From Geobacteraceae bacterium GWC2_53_11 (GTDB lineage Bacteria > Desulfobacterota > Desulfuromonadia > Geobacterales > Pseudopelobacteraceae), in assembly GCA_001802645.1 (NCBI GenBank), contig MGZJ01000041.1, positions 37,893 through 75,458 of the forward strand: a stretch of DNA of 37,566 nt, in the 5' to 3' direction. Positions 1,575 through 10,277 of the stretch are shown here, in pieces. The notes under the pieces are model-generated. The model was not told the DNA's origin. It worked only from the letters and a program-made list of their open reading frames with translations, and searched no databases. The first letter of the stretch is position 1; each line of letters opens with the position of its first letter. A program made the translations under genes and the position numbers.

Positions 1575-3923
1575 TTACAGAACCAGCTTCTTCCGCGCTG
1601 TGGCCAGACACTTTGCCATATCGACACTGTTGCGGCATGCCAGGGCAGCTTTCGCCAGGCGGCGGCACGCTTCGGCACTGTTGTTCCGGATCGCCTGCTT
1701 CACCACCGGAATACTGGGCGCTGACAGGCTGAATTCGCGGATCCCCATGCCCGTCAAGAGCAGGGCGCACAACGGATCGGCGGCCATCTCGCCACAGAGC
1801 GACACCTTTTTCCCCGCCTTGTTGGCCGCATCGGCAACGCGCTTGATGGAGTGCAGGATCGCCGGATGGTACGGGTCATAATACTGTCTGACACTGGCAT
1901 TGTTACGGTCAGCGGCCAGCGTGTACTGAATCAGGTCGTTGGTGCCGATGCTGACATAATCGACTTCCTGAATCAGGTAATCGATAATCTGCACCGCAGC
2001 CGGCACCTCAATCATGATCCCGAACGGGATATAGCCCGGTACGTCATGCCCTTCACGCAGCAGCTCGTTTCTGACCGATGTCAGGATTTCCCTGATCTGC
2101 CGGATCTCGTCGAGGCTGCTGATGAGCGGAAACATGACCGTTGCAGAGCCGAAGCGGGACGCGAGCAGAATACCGGCCAGCTGTTCCTTGAAAATATCCT
2201 GCCGCTCCAGCGAGACTCGAATCGAGCGCCACCCCAGGAACGGGTTATCTTCGTGGGGATAGGGAAAATAGGAGAGCCCCTTGTCGCCGCCGATGTCGAG
2301 GGTACGGATATTGACGGTCTGGCCGGGGAACCCTTCCAGGATCTTGCGATAAATGGCCGCCTGGGCGTCACGGTCAGGAAACGAGGAACGCGCCATATAG
2401 GGAAATTCGGTACGGTACAGCCCCACCCCTTCGGCGCCATGCAGGTTGGCAACCTTGACATCGGAAATCAGCCCGATGTTGGCGCTCAAGGTAATGGCAA
2501 CGCCATCGGTGGTCACCGCGGGGAGATCGCGCAGCCCTTCCAGCTCCTTCATGCGACCGGCGTATTCCTGCTCAAGACGAACGTACTCCTTTTTGATGCC
2601 CGCATCAGGATTGAGGTAGACCTGCCCCGAAGTACCGTCAACGATTATTTCATCCTTGACGTTGGCGGCATCCATCACCCCCCGCACGCCAAGCACTGCG
2701 GGGATGCCCAGCGACTTAGCCATGATGGCGGCGTGGGAAAAGGCGTTCCCCTTTTCGGTAACGATGCCGAGAATCTTGTTCGGATCAAGCATGGCAAGAT
2801 TGGAGGGGAAGATTTCATCCGCCACCAGCACCCGCTTCTCCTTGAGCGTCACCTCGTTGGTATCACTCCCTTCAATCGCATCGATAATGCGCCGCCCGAT
2901 ATCTTCCATATCAGCCGAGCGTTCCCGCAGGTACGGATCCTCCATGGCGGAAAAGGCCTGCACATAGTGCTGTACCACATCATGTACGGAGCGGGTCGCC
3001 CCCACCCCGCGCTCGATCAGATCCATAACCTTTGCGGAAAAACTCCGGTCTTCCAGTATCATCAGGTGGGTATGGAAGATGGCGGCGTCATCGGCCGAAA
3101 GCGTCTCGCTCACCCGCTTTTCCATATAAATGGTCTGGATCTTGGCCTTTTCCAGGGCCTGACTGAATTTATTCCGTTCTTCGGCAGCAGTCCCGACCTT
3201 GGCCAGCTTGATAACCTTATCGTTAAAACGGTCGAGGATATAAATCTTCCCCCGGCTGAAACCGGCCGACACCGCAGTCCCGGTGAGCGTCCGGGAAACC
3301 TGGCCCCGTCTGGCGCTCCCCGGAAGGGACGAGGCGACATCTCCTGCCGAACCATTGCGGACCTTGGCCAGTTCGCTTTCGAACCAGGCCCGTTCCTGTT
3401 CCTTGTGCTGAATCGAATCAAGCAGTCGTGCCGTATGCACAATGCTGCCGATCTGAAACGTGATCGTACGCAGGATACTTATTTCATCATCGCTGAAGCT
3501 GCGAGTTTCACGGGTCTGCACGACGATGACGCCGATGGGCGCCTTGTGCTCAAACAGCGGCAGGCCGAGAAACGACAGGAACCGTTCCTCTTTGGCCTCC
3601 TTGAAATATTTGTAGCGGGGATGCGACGGGGCATTATCAGTCATGACCATGGCGCGGGTTTCAATGGCAAGACCGGTCAAACCCTCATGGACCTTCATGG
3701 ATACCCGGCCGACCGAGGCCTTGGAAAGGCCTTTGGTAGCCTTCAGGGTCAGTGTCTCGCCATCCTTCTCCAGCAGATAGATCGAGCAGACATCGCTCCC
3801 CATGCGCTTGGCAACCAGGGTTACGATGTTGTCCAGGGTATCCTGAAGATCGTGGGAGTGGAGGATAATCGAACTGATATCTTCCAAAGTGCGGAGGCCG
3901 AGTGATTGCTGGGGTTCTTTCAT
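1575..3923 (-). CDS. ptsP: Phosphoenolpyruvate-protein phosphotransferase PtsP (enzyme I-Ntr)
   Basis: First component of the nitrogen-related PTS: it autophosphorylates from PEP and passes phosphate to NPr, a regulatory rather than sugar-transport chain. An N-terminal GAF domain spans about residues 15-170, the PTS enzyme I N-domain about 215-350, and the swivelling phosphohistidine domain contains H397 in GNAFSHAAIMAKSLG. The PEP-binding barrel runs from about 465 to the end, with LYRTEF (R504) and the active-site cysteine C710 in LCGEMA. At 782 residues it is slightly longer than E. coli PtsP (748). An AAGG ribosome binding site lies 6 bases before the ATG, right at the edge of the large palindrome at 3931-4121. 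No NPr gene is visible in the window. Confidence 0.95.
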   Translation of the reverse strand: MKEPQQSLGLRTLEDISSIILHSHDLQDTLDNIVTLVAKRMGSDVCSIYLLEKDGETLTLKATKGLSKASVGRVSMKVHEGLTGLAIETRAMVMTDNAPSHPRYKYFKEAKEERFLSFLGLPLFEHKAPIGVIVVQTRETRSFSDDEISILRTITFQIGSIVHTARLLDSIQHKEQERAWFESELAKVRNGSAGDVASSLPGSARRGQVSRTLTGTAVSAGFSRGKIYILDRFNDKVIKLAKVGTAAEERNKFSQALEKAKIQTIYMEKRVSETLSADDAAIFHTHLMILEDRSFSAKVMDLIERGVGATRSVHDVVQHYVQAFSAMEDPYLRERSADMEDIGRRIIDAIEGSDTNEVTLKEKRVLVADEIFPSNLAMLDPNKILGIVTEKGNAFSHAAIMAKSLGIPAVLGVRGVMDAANVKDEIIVDGTSGQVYLNPDAGIKKEYVRLEQEYAGRMKELEGLRDLPAVTTDGVAITLSANIGLISDVKVANLHGAEGVGLYRTEFPYMARSSFPDRDAQAAIYRKILEGFPGQTVNIRTLDIGGDKGLSYFPYPHEDNPFLGWRSIRVSLERQDIFKEQLAGILLASRFGSATVMFPLISSLDEIRQIREILTSVRNELLREGHDVPGYIPFGIMIEVPAAVQIIDYLIQEVDYVSIGTNDLIQYTLAADRNNASVRQYYDPYHPAILHSIKRVADAANKAGKKVSLCGEMAADPLCALLLTGMGIREFSLSAPSIPVVKQAIRNNSAEACRRLAKAALACRNSVDMAKCLATARKKLVL

Positions 3924-3930
3924 TGAAGCG

Positions 3931-4121
3931 CCTTAGGAGTTGTAAAATAAATGACTTGGTTAATATTGCGCTCAGATTCGGGTCAGATTTGGCTGAACTG
4001 ATTGAGGCAAACCACAGACGTAGCAGAGCTACGTTGAGGATTTGGTGATTGAAGTTCGGTCAAAGATGGCCTGAAGATGAGATGCAAGATGGCCATGTTA
4101 TTTTTTTTACAGCTCCTCAAT
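3931..4121 (+). repeat. Long imperfect palindrome (about 94 + 3 + 94 bp) upstream of ptsP
   Basis: Left arm 3931-4024 and right arm 4028-4121 are inverted repeats around AGA (4025-4027). The core ACGTAGC/GCTACGT is perfect. About 60% of positions across the arms are complementary without needing a shift in register, except for one compensated base around 3961-3970. Matching patches include the TGTAAAA segment at 3941, the TTTG/CAAA patches and GAACT near 3996. Most transition mismatches would be G-U pairs in plus-strand RNA (3940, 3953, 3960, 3980, 3983, 3992, 3994, 4017) against two C-A (4012, 4015). The outer end overlaps the ptsP ribosome binding site. It could be a structured RNA, a non-autonomous mobile element or two inverted copies of a repeat. 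Confidence 0.75.
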
Positions 4122-4181
4122 GGATATTTGACGTAACGGCATTGCTGCTGACAACTGGTTACTGGAACTCTTTTCTTCGTA

Positions 4182-4263
4182 AACCAACCCCCCTCAATCC
4201 CCCCTTATCAGGGGGGAGCTTTTAAGTCTCCCCTGACAAGGGGAGGTTTGGAGGGGTTGGGTA
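4182..4263. repeat. C/G-rich paired palindrome, copy 2
   Basis: Two hairpins in inverted orientation: CCCCCC-TTATCA-GGGGGG (4199-4216) and CTCCCC-TGACAA-GGGGAG (4228-4245). They are flanked by ACCAACCCCCC on the left and GGGGTTGGGT on the right, so the whole unit is also one large inverted repeat. It lies just beyond the 3' end of the channel gene (minus strand) and could terminate its transcript. Same family as 1447-1570 and 12137-12268. The rest of the 3924-4281 gap is the palindrome at 3931-4121 plus about 60 bp in which I see nothing. Confidence 0.75.
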
Positions 4264-4281
4264 TTGATGATACTGCACTAC

Positions 4282-5817
4282 CTACATTCCGAAAAAATAT
4301 TTCAGCCGTTGCAGATAATCTTCGTTGCGCGGCAGCGCCGCGACGGTTTCGCTCCGGCTGGCTCTGCTTGCCCGGCTTTTCCGTTCCCGCTCGACGAGGA
4401 TCGTGCTCAACGCGTCAAGCATGGCAGGATTGGCGTGCAGGATCGGCTCCATGATCTCCTTGGTAATCTCCGCCAGCCAGACTTCGCTGGTCGCACGAAC
4501 CGTTGCCGTGCGCGGCTCACCGGTCAGCAGCGACATCTCGCCGAAAAACGACCCCTGGTGAATGCTCCCCACCGGTGTTCCGGCAATGGAAACGTCAAGG
4601 GTTCCTTTAAGAACTATGAAAAGCGAACTCCCCATTTCGCCCTGTCGGACGACGATTTCATCCGCCCCATACACGGCAATCGGCGCCTGTTCTACCAGCG
4701 CTGCAACCTGCTGAACCTCAAGCATGGCAAAGAGCCCGGAATCGCGCAGATAGCCGGCAATCTGTTCTTTGGAAAACTCAAACGGCTGGCGGCTTTCTGA
4801 CGTAACAATTTGACGGTGCGGATAGGGGAAACTGTAGCCGACACGATTCACGGCATACCAGATCTGGCTGTAGAGGGAATCCTGTACCGGAATCCGGCGT
4901 GAAGGATCATCAATACTGAATCTGAGTTGGTAGGTAATTCCACTGTCGTTCAGCGCAATCAGCCGTACGAGCGGTTCCGGATCGTCAATAACCTCCCGGT
5001 CTTCACGAATAACCTTGAGCAGCAGCGCCTTTGCCATTTCGGGAGGCATGTCATAGCCAAGCATGACGTTCACCTGCAATGCAGGTTTTTCCTCGGTTCC
5101 CCGGTTACCGTGATAGGTGACGATGTTCTGCATGATGACGCTGTTCGGCACCATGATCAGGTAGTTTTCCGGGTTTTTCAGGGTTGTATAGCGAAAGCCG
5201 ACATTGACGATTTCGCCGAAAATGTCTTTTTCCTTGATTGTTATCCAGTTGCCGCGCGACAAGAGCTGATCCGACTGAATCGAAAAACCGGACAGGGCGT
5301 TGGTCAGCGTACTCTGCATGGCAAAGGCGATAGTCGCGGTGATGACCGTCGTTGTGGTGACTATCGCCGAGAGATCTATTTTGAAAACCAGCCGCAATGA
5401 AATGATTCCGACCGCCAGGTAGACCACCAGGCGGACGGAATCCCGGAGAAACGAGGGAACTTCCCTCTGCGTGTGAATGCGGAGATAGACGTCAACCGTG
5501 AGGTACGTCACCAGTCTGGCCAGACAGAGCAGCACGACGATCGTCTGCACTCCCTGGATAATGGCCTGATAGCTTGGCAGGCTGGACATCGCCAGCTCGG
5601 CATAGAGCAGAATAAAACCGAACAGGGACAGCTTGATCGGGCCTGTTATACCGGGGCCCGCATCCTGCCGGTGAGTGCGCCGCAACAACGCCACAACACA
5701 GAAGAACAGCAGCGTGACCACCAGCACGAAAATGCGGTTGATCAAAATAAAATTAAGATCTATCAGCGACACGACCGGCGCACCGGATGCGGCCTGTACC
5801 AGCGGGTTCATTGCCAT
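4282..5817 (-). CDS. Mechanosensitive (MscS-type) ion channel with C-terminal cyclic-nucleotide-binding domain
   Basis: Inner-membrane channel of the MscS superfamily. Hydrophobic helices lie at about residues 22-45, 62-80, 88-108 and 128-145. The pore-lining/beta-domain region follows at about 150-340, with the typical GEIVNVGFRYTTLKNPENY and MVPNSV stretch at 201-227. Residues ~380-475 form a cNMP domain with the phosphate-binding cassette FFGEMSLLTGEPRTATV (R436). This matches the bacterial cyclic-nucleotide-gated MscS-like group, in which ligand rather than tension may gate the channel. The pyrD stop codon overlaps its GAGGAA ribosome binding site, so it is probably cotranscribed with pyrK-pyrD. 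The start could be M1 or M3. Confidence 0.9.
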   Translation of the reverse strand: MAMNPLVQAASGAPVVSLIDLNFILINRIFVLVVTLLFFCVVALLRRTHRQDAGPGITGPIKLSLFGFILLYAELAMSSLPSYQAIIQGVQTIVVLLCLARLVTYLTVDVYLRIHTQREVPSFLRDSVRLVVYLAVGIISLRLVFKIDLSAIVTTTTVITATIAFAMQSTLTNALSGFSIQSDQLLSRGNWITIKEKDIFGEIVNVGFRYTTLKNPENYLIMVPNSVIMQNIVTYHGNRGTEEKPALQVNVMLGYDMPPEMAKALLLKVIREDREVIDDPEPLVRLIALNDSGITYQLRFSIDDPSRRIPVQDSLYSQIWYAVNRVGYSFPYPHRQIVTSESRQPFEFSKEQIAGYLRDSGLFAMLEVQQVAALVEQAPIAVYGADEIVVRQGEMGSSLFIVLKGTLDVSIAGTPVGSIHQGSFFGEMSLLTGEPRTATVRATSEVWLAEITKEIMEPILHANPAMLDALSTILVERERKSRASRASRSETVAALPRNEDYLQRLKYFFGM

Positions 5818-8433: not shown

Positions 8434-8886
8434 TTACCTCAAACATTTCTCCATCAAAACCGCATCATCCCTGCCTTCATAATACTTTTCCCGCACGCCG
8501 GTCCGGACAAAACCGCACCGCTCATACAGGGTAATGGCCGAACTGTTGGTGGAGCGTACTTCAAGAGCCAGCACTTCGGCTTTCTTTTCCCGCGCCACCG
8601 CCACCGCATGGTCCATCAGCAACTGCGCAATGCCCTTCCCCCGCTGCTGCGGTGCCACGGCAATATCCAGTATCTGCGCCTCCTCAAACAGCGACATCAG
8701 GCATACATAGCCGACGATGCTGCCACTGGACTCGGCAACAAACGGGAACGAATGGGGCGCGGCCATTTCGTGTTCAAAATGTTCACGCTGCCACGGCACG
8801 GAAAACGAAGCCTGCTCGATATTCAGGATGGCGTCGAGGTCAGCTGGCGCCATGGGGCGGATGACTATTCCGGATGGTATGGACAT
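8434..8886 (-). CDS. rimI: Ribosomal protein S18-alanine N-acetyltransferase
   Basis: GNAT-family acetyltransferase of 150 residues that acetylates the N-terminal alanine of ribosomal protein S18. The acetyl-CoA loop is VAPQQRGKGIAQLLMDHA, preceded by EEAQILDIAV and followed by LALEVRSTNSSAITLYERCGF, the usual RimI signature. The start region has only a weak ribosome binding site. It is divergent from the EndoQ-like gene. A closely related GNAT of other specificity is possible, but the motif spacing favours RimI. Confidence 0.9.
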   Translation of the reverse strand: MSIPSGIVIRPMAPADLDAILNIEQASFSVPWQREHFEHEMAAPHSFPFVAESSGSIVGYVCLMSLFEEAQILDIAVAPQQRGKGIAQLLMDHAVAVAREKKAEVLALEVRSTNSSAITLYERCGFVRTGVREKYYEGRDDAVLMEKCLR

Positions 8887-8950
8887 GACTCGGCATGATA
8901 TGCAAGCGCGGAGCTCTTGTAAACGGTTTTCAGACCATTCACGTCAGTTT

Positions 8951-8959
8951 GTGGTATAG
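8951..8959 (+). promoter_or_regulatory. Extended -10 promoter for the EndoQ-like gene
   Basis: TGG-TATAGT fits an extended -10 element about 44 bp before the ATG of the downstream gene. No good -35 is present at 17 bp spacing, which is acceptable for the extended class. Predicted by eye only. Confidence 0.4.
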
Positions 8960-9002
8960 TTCGAGCCCTCAAAAATATCGCAAGGAAACCGGAACTGTAA
9001 CC

Positions 9003-10277
9003 ATGAACTACATCGCCGATCTGCACATCCACTCCCCCTTCTCCCGGGCCACCAGCAAAGGCAGCACCCTGAGCGGACTGGCATCCTGGGCCCGCATCAA
9101 GGGCATCCAGGTCGTCGGCACCGGCGACTTCACGCATCCCGGCTGGCTGAACTGCCTGAAAGACGAGCTGACACCGGCCGAACCCGGCCTGTTCCGGCTG
9201 AAGGACGAAACGAGGCTGACCTCACCCCTGCCGGGGGTGGCGCTGCCGAAGGGCCCGGTCCGCTTCCTCCTGACCGCCGAGGTGAGCAGCATCTACAAAC
9301 GCCACGGCCAGGTGCGCAAAGTCCACAACCTCCTCTACGTCCCGGATTTCGGCTCCGCCGAACGGATCAACGCGAAACTCGCCGCCATCGGCAATATCAC
9401 GTCGGACGGCAGGCCGATCCTCGGCCTCGACAGCCGTGACCTGCTGGAGATCCTGCTGGAGCAGGCGCCGGAAGGGTTCCTCGTGCCGGCCCACATCTGG
9501 ACCCCCTGGTTTTCCCTGTTCGGCTCCCGTTCCGGCTTCGACGCCATCGAGGAATGTTACGGCGACCTGACCCCGCACGTGTTCGCCCTGGAAACCGGGC
9601 TCTCCTCCGACCCGGAGATGAACCGGCTTATCTCAGCCCTCGACCGCTTCGCCCTCATCTCCAATTCCGACTGCCACTCCCCCCAGAAGCTCGGCCGCGA
9701 GGCGAACCTCTTCGACACGGAACTGAATTTTCATGCCCTCCGCGACGCCATCAGAGGGAACCGGCGCGAAACCTTTCGCGGCACCGTCGAGTTCTTTCCG
9801 GAAGAGGGAAAGTACCATTTCGACGGCCACCGCGCCTGCAACGTCTGCCTCGATCCCCATGAAACGCGGCGACTCGGCCTCCTCTGCCCGGCCTGCGGCA
9901 GGCCGCTCACCGTCGGGGTCCACCACCGGGTCATGGACCTGGCCGACCGGGACGCGCCGCTCTTTGGGCCGGACACGCCTCTCGTCCACAGCCTCATCCC
10001 GCTCCCGGAACTGCTGAGTGAACTGCTCGGCGTCGGGCCTGCCTCAAAAAAAGTCATGCTCCGGTATGCCAGCGTCATCGCCCGCTTCGGCTCCGAATTA
10101 AACCTGTTTCTGCAAACTCCGCTCGACGAAATCGCCTCCCATGCTCCGCTTCTGGGCGAGGCGGTCAAACGCGTCCGCGAAGGCCGGGTAATCCGCCAGC
10201 CCGGCTACGACGGCGAATTCGGGATCATCACCGTCTTCGAAGCCGGGGAAATTCACTACTACCCGCCCCTCATCTGA
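9003..10277 (+). CDS. Endonuclease Q-like PHP-domain protein
   Basis: 424 residues, the same size as archaeal endonuclease Q, which nicks DNA 5' of deaminated bases (uracil, hypoxanthine) and abasic sites. The N-terminal PHP metal-binding motif is DLHIHSPFS (H8, H10), with GTGDFTHPG (39-47), HIW near 164-166, and SNSDCHSP (D223, H225). A four-cysteine zinc site follows: C279, C282, C295, C298. The tail has a helix-hairpin-helix-like LLGVGPASKKVMLRYASV. I chose the ATG at 9003 because the PHP motif starts at once and GGAAACC precedes it; a longer frame adds 36 unrelated residues. Divergent from rimI and on its own promoter. Function is by homology. Confidence 0.87.
   Translation: MNYIADLHIHSPFSRATSKGSTLSGLASWARIKGIQVVGTGDFTHPGWLNCLKDELTPAEPGLFRLKDETRLTSPLPGVALPKGPVRFLLTAEVSSIYKRHGQVRKVHNLLYVPDFGSAERINAKLAAIGNITSDGRPILGLDSRDLLEILLEQAPEGFLVPAHIWTPWFSLFGSRSGFDAIEECYGDLTPHVFALETGLSSDPEMNRLISALDRFALISNSDCHSPQKLGREANLFDTELNFHALRDAIRGNRRETFRGTVEFFPEEGKYHFDGHRACNVCLDPHETRRLGLLCPACGRPLTVGVHHRVMDLADRDAPLFGPDTPLVHSLIPLPELLSELLGVGPASKKVMLRYASVIARFGSELNLFLQTPLDEIASHAPLLGEAVKRVREGRVIRQPGYDGEFGIITVFEAGEIHYYPPLI

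Follow-up and report, generated by a model that had tools for sequence, protein, structure and literature searches.

A short mobile palindrome upstream of ptsP, with covarying ends and a plus strand kept foldable into one long hairpin

What is the long imperfect palindrome upstream of ptsP in Geobacteraceae bacterium GWC2_53_11, and what favors the folding of one of its strands? The window (the whole stretch of DNA analyzed, 37,566 nucleotides of contig MGZJ01000041.1) carries ptsP at 1575-3923 on the minus strand and, beyond the palindrome, a gene at 4282-5817, also on the minus strand, for a protein with MscS-like and cyclic-nucleotide-binding-like parts. An earlier note on this DNA had described arms about 60% identical at 3931-4024 and 4028-4121; compared without gaps, they agree at 57 of 94 positions, which is the top score among palindromes of the window with 94-base arms and a 3-base loop (the runner-up reaches 46). 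The note had also tallied eight G-U against two C-A mismatches on the plus strand, right in direction and short in number, as the actual figures are 11 G-U and 3 A-C. Folded as RNA and compared with shuffled sequence, the two strands are unequal, as that note had proposed to check: the plus strand gives -92.8 kcal/mol (z -12.5) and the minus strand -52.7 kcal/mol (z -6.0). With DNA folding, the plus strand lies at z -8.8 relative to shuffles.

The arms stand as they had been placed, and the borders obtained from aligned copies reduce the element proper to 3936-4116 rather than the full 3931-4121. The covariance model of the family, R1, matches the window copy at 3937-4115 with 181.1 bits on the plus strand and 55.9 bits on the minus strand. 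The element and its flanks are as follows.

3936 to 4116, plus strand: mobile element of 181 bp, a single long irregular plus-strand hairpin (borders from aligned copies)
3933 to 3935, no strand: left flanking triplet TTA, target duplication (from the TWA pattern of other copies)
4117 to 4119, no strand: right flanking triplet TCA (window sequence, positioned by comparison with other copies)

The outer end had been said to reach the ptsP ribosome binding site. The likely Shine-Dalgarno sequence, judging by its letters (CCTT on the plus strand, 3931-3934), does adjoin the element, just outside its left end. The copy is antisense to both neighbors, and since both genes lie on the minus strand, readthrough from ptsP would yield the weaker-folding strand. 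A sigma-70-like promoter was sought at this copy and none was found. Across the whole window, no Rfam 15 covariance model matched at gathering score, and in 3900-4280 the 15 matches up to E=10 were all at 4177-4267, none within the element. A second inverted repeat, C-rich and about 80 bp long, occupies 4181-4262, between the element and the next gene; Rfam gives it sub-threshold microRNA-like matches only, and it owns 36 of the 40 rows of the blastn search against the genome itself (both strands of one place counted apart).

Besides the window copy, blastn found three further copies in the same genome, and R1 listed six matches, one of which is the other strand of the window copy, leaving five places. 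A blastn match was present in 21 of 58 relatives. With R1 (genome counts made with strict filters), matches were obtained in at least 75 of 141 genomes of the order, at least 51 of the 103 better ones, and at least 21 of 29 genera. Across the phylum, at least 33 of 297 sampled genomes matched, 20 of these 33 with a best E-value of 2.7e-16 or lower; the remaining 13 were weak (best E-values from 6.7e-8 to 8.1e-4), which could reflect chance or distant relatives. An exact-pattern scan of contigs returned at least 119 stretches, and the matches listed came from Deltaproteobacteria, Geobacter, Syntrophus, Desulfobulbaceae, Nitrospirae, Nitrospinia, Scalindua, Brocadiaceae, Methylococcaceae, Gammaproteobacteria, and others; as most of these records are metagenome-assembled genomes (MAGs), some could be misbinned single contigs. 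The MAG CSMAG_2994 (G058, 2.8 Mb, the genome of locus L060) had 329 forward and 334 reverse end matches, that is, roughly 330 copies, and a Gammaproteobacteria MAG had 81 and 73. Plasmid and phage records gave no blastn match. One contig binned as the archaeon Methanolliviera (L171) has the same sequence to the left of the element as a CSMAG_2994 locus (L163), and its assignment is probably a binning error.

A role specific to ptsP is not supported by this distribution: copies are hosted by many unrelated loci, for which reason a ptsP regulatory RNA was rejected, and orientation to neighboring genes is near even. Among 174 non-redundant full-length copies, 94 lie between tandem genes, 55 in the sense orientation and 39 against (p=0.12, not significant), 36 between divergent genes, 17 between convergent genes, and 3 within a gene, while 24 were too close to an edge to be classed.

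Aligned in one orientation, copies start with GG and finish with CC, adjoining TTA or TAA; GG at the tips is also found in the Tourist MITEs of the PIF/Harbinger group. Length was 178 to 181 bp in 144 of the 174 copies, and the flanking triplets were equal TWA in 112, unmatched TWA in 16, and other in 46, of which 4 had equal triplets. The border-finding scripts reward TAA or TTA on either side and not the equality of both; 13 matches were dropped at this step, including 8 at contig edges. The 36 full copies found in 408 kb of the high-copy MAG had equal triplets in 24 cases, unmatched TWA in 10, and other triplets in 2. The right triplet of the window copy, TCA, is read by comparison as a mutated TTA.

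Empty sites point the same way. Joined host flanks aligned unbroken in relatives at five of six loci; the query was short of one or two bases at some of the joins. For the window copy only the ptsP side aligned, and the five do not include its empty site. Base by base, the empty sites were clean only at L278 (two relatives) and L234 (one relative), the L279 junction having been misplaced by the aligner. At L278 the empty site has one TTT and the filled site two; the gap is 183 bases long in both relatives, and this clean case is a duplication of TTT and not of TWA; at L234 the gap is 181 bases. The element thus inserts with a short, mostly TWA, target duplication. It is short and dispersed and, in the loci read, holds no transposase between the ends of a copy, as is characteristic of bacterial MITEs.

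Why the plus strand folds so well was addressed with an alignment (A1) of 39 divergent copies, below about 93% similarity, picked from 73 usable ones. RNAalifold returned a single 63-pair hairpin in which 40 pairs show double changes. Paired cells amounted to 93.2%, against 78.2% in shuffled alignments (sd 0.5), compensated double-change cells to 381 against 124.0 (sd 9.6), and the covariation score to 0.453 against 0.179 in shuffles and 0.113 in the best slid control, none of 500 shuffles reaching any observed value of the three, although these control figures are not probabilities, because the structure was derived from A1 itself and the shuffles ignore relatedness. G-U cells outnumbered A-C cells 316 to 48 (206 to 48 when three near-invariant wobbles are left out), and in none of the 39 copies did A-C equal or exceed G-U. 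The outer 14 pairs, counted over 140 distinct end combinations, were Watson-Crick in 1,718 of 1,960 cells, as terminal inverted repeats should be, with 146 G-U and 33 A-C; the 49 of these combinations that were absent from the earlier set gave 52 and 11. Under RNA parameters the plus strand folded better than the minus strand in all 174 copies, and under DNA parameters in 172 of them. It is the plus strand, and not the minus, whose ability to fold over its full length into a single long irregular hairpin has been kept. The earlier note had suggested selection on the plus strand and had looked to homologous copies for covariation, and on both counts the present data agree with it: compensatory changes were found, against shuffles, in many genomes, and the folded plus strand seems to be under selection, be it as RNA or as single-stranded DNA.

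Conservation along this hairpin is uneven. Outer positions 4-12, compared over 80 copies, are weakly conserved yet paired, with a mutual information of 0.7 to 1.4 bits, and the tip GG and an AATAA at positions 14-18 are conserved. The inner core is also conserved, with CGCTCAGATT-GGTCAGATTTG opposite CAAAGATGGCC-GAAGATGAGATG. In the window copy, these parts are placed as follows.

3936 to 3949, plus strand: left terminal repeat, variable among copies and complementary to the right one (outer-position covariation)
4103 to 4116, plus strand: right terminal repeat, complementary to the left one (outer-position covariation)
3975 to 3976, plus strand: first tandem G-A mismatch, GA opposite GA at 4076-4077 (A1 conservation)
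3986 to 3987, plus strand: second tandem G-A mismatch, GA opposite GA at 4065-4066, 11 positions inward of the first (A1)
4000 to 4005, plus strand: symmetrical internal loop, GATTGA opposite GATTGA at 4047-4052 (A1 columns 70-75 and 120-125)
4018 to 4034, plus strand: apical hairpin ACGTAGC-AGA-GCTACGT (sequence; A1 helix 5, 94.6% of cells paired)
4082, plus strand: bulged A, shared by all 39 copies of the alignment (A1 column 155)

At the first tandem G-A, the left G is kept in 39 and the left A in 34 of the 39 copies, and the right G and A in 35 each; at the second, the figures are 38 and 32 on the left and 33 and 37 on the right. Three wobble pairs are nearly invariant, being kept in 36 to 38 of the 39 copies. 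These irregularities of the conserved core exist on one strand only, the opposite strand having C-T and A-C mismatches there. Two MAGs have other palindromes inside the loop region of the element. In CSMAG_2994, a nested palindromic repeat family ending in GAAGGATGCC recurs at the same point of the loop (L211 5028-5138, L217 17516-17627, and similar cases). In the Gammaproteobacteria MAG Modern_marine.mb.35 (L062, L088, L094, and other loci), a different G+C-rich palindrome replaces the apical hairpin, so that the stem is extended and not broken.

Bacterial MITEs are as a rule recognized by their conserved ends, the middle being dispensable, and an ordinary MITE would explain part of these data: its ends would be complementary because one transposase binds both, and its strand bias would be inherited from one founder. 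The copies are related, and the cells counted above are therefore not independent. Within the high-copy MAG, the end mismatches of the 36 full copies comprise 16 G-U, 13 A-C, and 20 others, so that no bias is visible within one burst. Ends there do fit the opposite end of the same copy better than an end drawn at random (383 of 432, against 357 with sd 5.7), and some end pairs are mosaic, yet equal triplets flank 24 of the 36 full copies, which suggests that matched ends may be unneeded. On the other side, the middle of this family is its most conserved part and the ends the least, opposite to what MITEs usually show; the excess of G-U is seen again over distinct end combinations; and conservation across long distances extends to features that exist on one strand only, such as the G-A pairs and the bulged A. 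We consider an ordinary MITE an improbable explanation.

A different reading is that the plus strand is transcribed into an RNA with a function of its own, acting on the stability or processing of host transcripts or in trans as a small RNA, with mobility incidental, as has been argued for ERIC. The strong covariation, the wobbles fixed in nearly all copies, the invariant bulged A, and the excess of G-U over A-C would all be expected of it, and there is a slight lean to the sense strand at tandem genes (55 of 94). Geobacter annotators listed "predicted short RNA elements" that are probably the identical family (available sections of PMC2700814), and ERIC RNA affects mRNA stability according to the part of PMC2229807 at hand. 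Against this, the lean in orientation is not significant, the window copy is antisense to both neighbors and has no promoter-like site, and no Rfam family matches. The near-even orientation and the lack of a sigma-70-like promoter at the window copy make a passive transcript a poor reason for the strand polarity. We regard a functional RNA as a serious possibility, though one clearly below even.

The earlier note had further raised a palindromic element with an RNA intermediate. That the palindrome is mobile has held up; its RNA intermediate has not. A retroelement, the hairpin RNA of which would be reverse transcribed and then inserted, would account for a strand-specific fold. The duplications are 3 bp long and mostly TWA, however, and left truncations are not in excess: in the same 408 kb, non-edge truncated copies lacked the left part in 9 cases, the right in 7, and both in 1, and once those cut at a nested insert are set aside the numbers, small as they are, become 3 and 5. 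A DNA transposon fits these two observations better than an RNA intermediate, and a retroelement appears highly improbable.

We therefore favor, with slightly better than even confidence, the reading of the window palindrome as a single member of a family of non-autonomous DNA mobile elements (a MITE) whose mobility cycle involves the folded plus strand. A 3-bp staggered cut would be made by a transposase acting in trans, as suggested by the TWA duplication, which is the signature of PIF/Harbinger elements; staggered cuts of this kind are also made by some bacterial IS5-family elements, and TNA duplications occur in some IS5 relatives. The folded plus strand would take part in the cycle, to which the covariation up to the tips, the near-even gene orientation, and the lack of a sigma-70-like promoter at the window copy all point. 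The conserved irregular core would serve recognition and strand choice, and the terminal stem would only have to be complementary, so that the sequence of the ends could drift through compensated changes. That the arms change together in favor of a one-strand fold suggests that the folded strand matters for spread. We lean slightly toward single-stranded DNA rather than transcribed RNA as the folding form; an RNA would be no worse a match for the fixed wobble pairs and the tandem G-A mismatches. A bolder version, which we offer tentatively and hold to be doubtful, is a structure-directed transposition in which an enzyme would read one folded strand (RNA or single-stranded DNA) through its core of tandem G-A pairs and bulged A, need only complementary ends, and leave a 3-bp TWA duplication. 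If true, such a route would leave the ends free to diversify even within one genome and would help the element to pass between phyla.

In the search for a helper, no TWA-flanked transposase with matching ends appeared in the loci read, and PF01609, the one transposase family searched genome-wide, gave few hits in three genomes. The intact PF01609 transposase of genome G044 (L183) was rejected as helper, its own inverted repeats being different. A hit to terminal inverted repeats in G044 (L179) was a solo left end, and three other such hits had no convincing partner end. Candidates for an autonomous version, taken as distance hits, also comprised loci such as L060, L100, L109, L168, L194, and L174; of those considered individually, L093 proved to be a host gene lying between two copies, L135 contains a nested palindrome, and L214 is by its coordinates two adjacent copies.

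If the favored reading is true, the family offers a testable case in which selection on a mobile element acts through its folded single strand, and it would account for a set of orphan "short RNA elements" in Geobacter annotation; the covariance model R1 can be used to annotate its members.

A literature search, mostly of non-subscription sources and these seen in part, yielded no description of the family as a mobile or transposable element. Its closest antecedent is in Aklujkar et al. 2009 (PMC2700814), where intergenic "predicted short RNA elements" were reported from related hosts and Desulfotalea. The central palindrome given there, GRCGTAGCGCTGCTACGCC, is the reverse complement of the apical hairpin of the L024 and L149 copies, and these metallireducens elements are, by sequence, probably the same family as glimpsed by annotators; the available sections do not call it mobile and describe no target duplication, ends, or strand-specific covariation. 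One member, Gmet_R1005, was sought by its locus (dapB/dapL), and no R1 match was found at dapL in eight other species.

A MITE of the same host group is Chunjie of Geobacter uraniireducens, known to us through a review seen in part (PMC10969869), with a size range of 178 to 235 bp that is shared with the element. Genome G090 has two nearly identical phosphate operons, one with an insert (L271, about 8776-9008) and the other with a clean empty site (L270), and the insert fits the published Chunjie-1 MITE. R1 run on L270 and L271 up to E=10 gave no match, while true copies of the element lie elsewhere in G090; with other ends and no R1 match in the L271 insert, identity with Chunjie was ruled out.

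REPINs resemble the element in being short, non-autonomous, intergenic, present in many copies per genome, and marked by compensatory changes, and the accessible text of PMC3116915 presents them as mobile hairpins kept by such changes, read there as single-stranded DNA or mRNA. Their ends (REPs) are highly conserved and their spacer is not; in the element conservation runs the opposite way, with variable ends and a conserved core in place of two conserved ends around a variable spacer, and unlike REPINs it has a 3-bp duplication. The ERIC/IRU sequences of enterobacteria, as far as PMC2229807 was available, are likewise imperfect palindromes, intergenic, and foldable as RNA along their length, but they measure 127 bp with TA termini, whereas the element has about 180 bp, TWA triplets, and other hosts. 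PIF/Harbinger elements and their MITEs share the 3-bp TWA duplication and differ in being eukaryotic, and the duplication of bacterial IS5 is given as ANT (both from the part of PMC4482050 at hand); a 3-bp TWA duplication of the PIF/Harbinger or IS5 type is what the element shows. Set beside these systems, the family is a bacterial fold-back MITE, unusual for ends that vary yet covary, an irregular core that is conserved, a strand polarity, and a distribution over several phyla.
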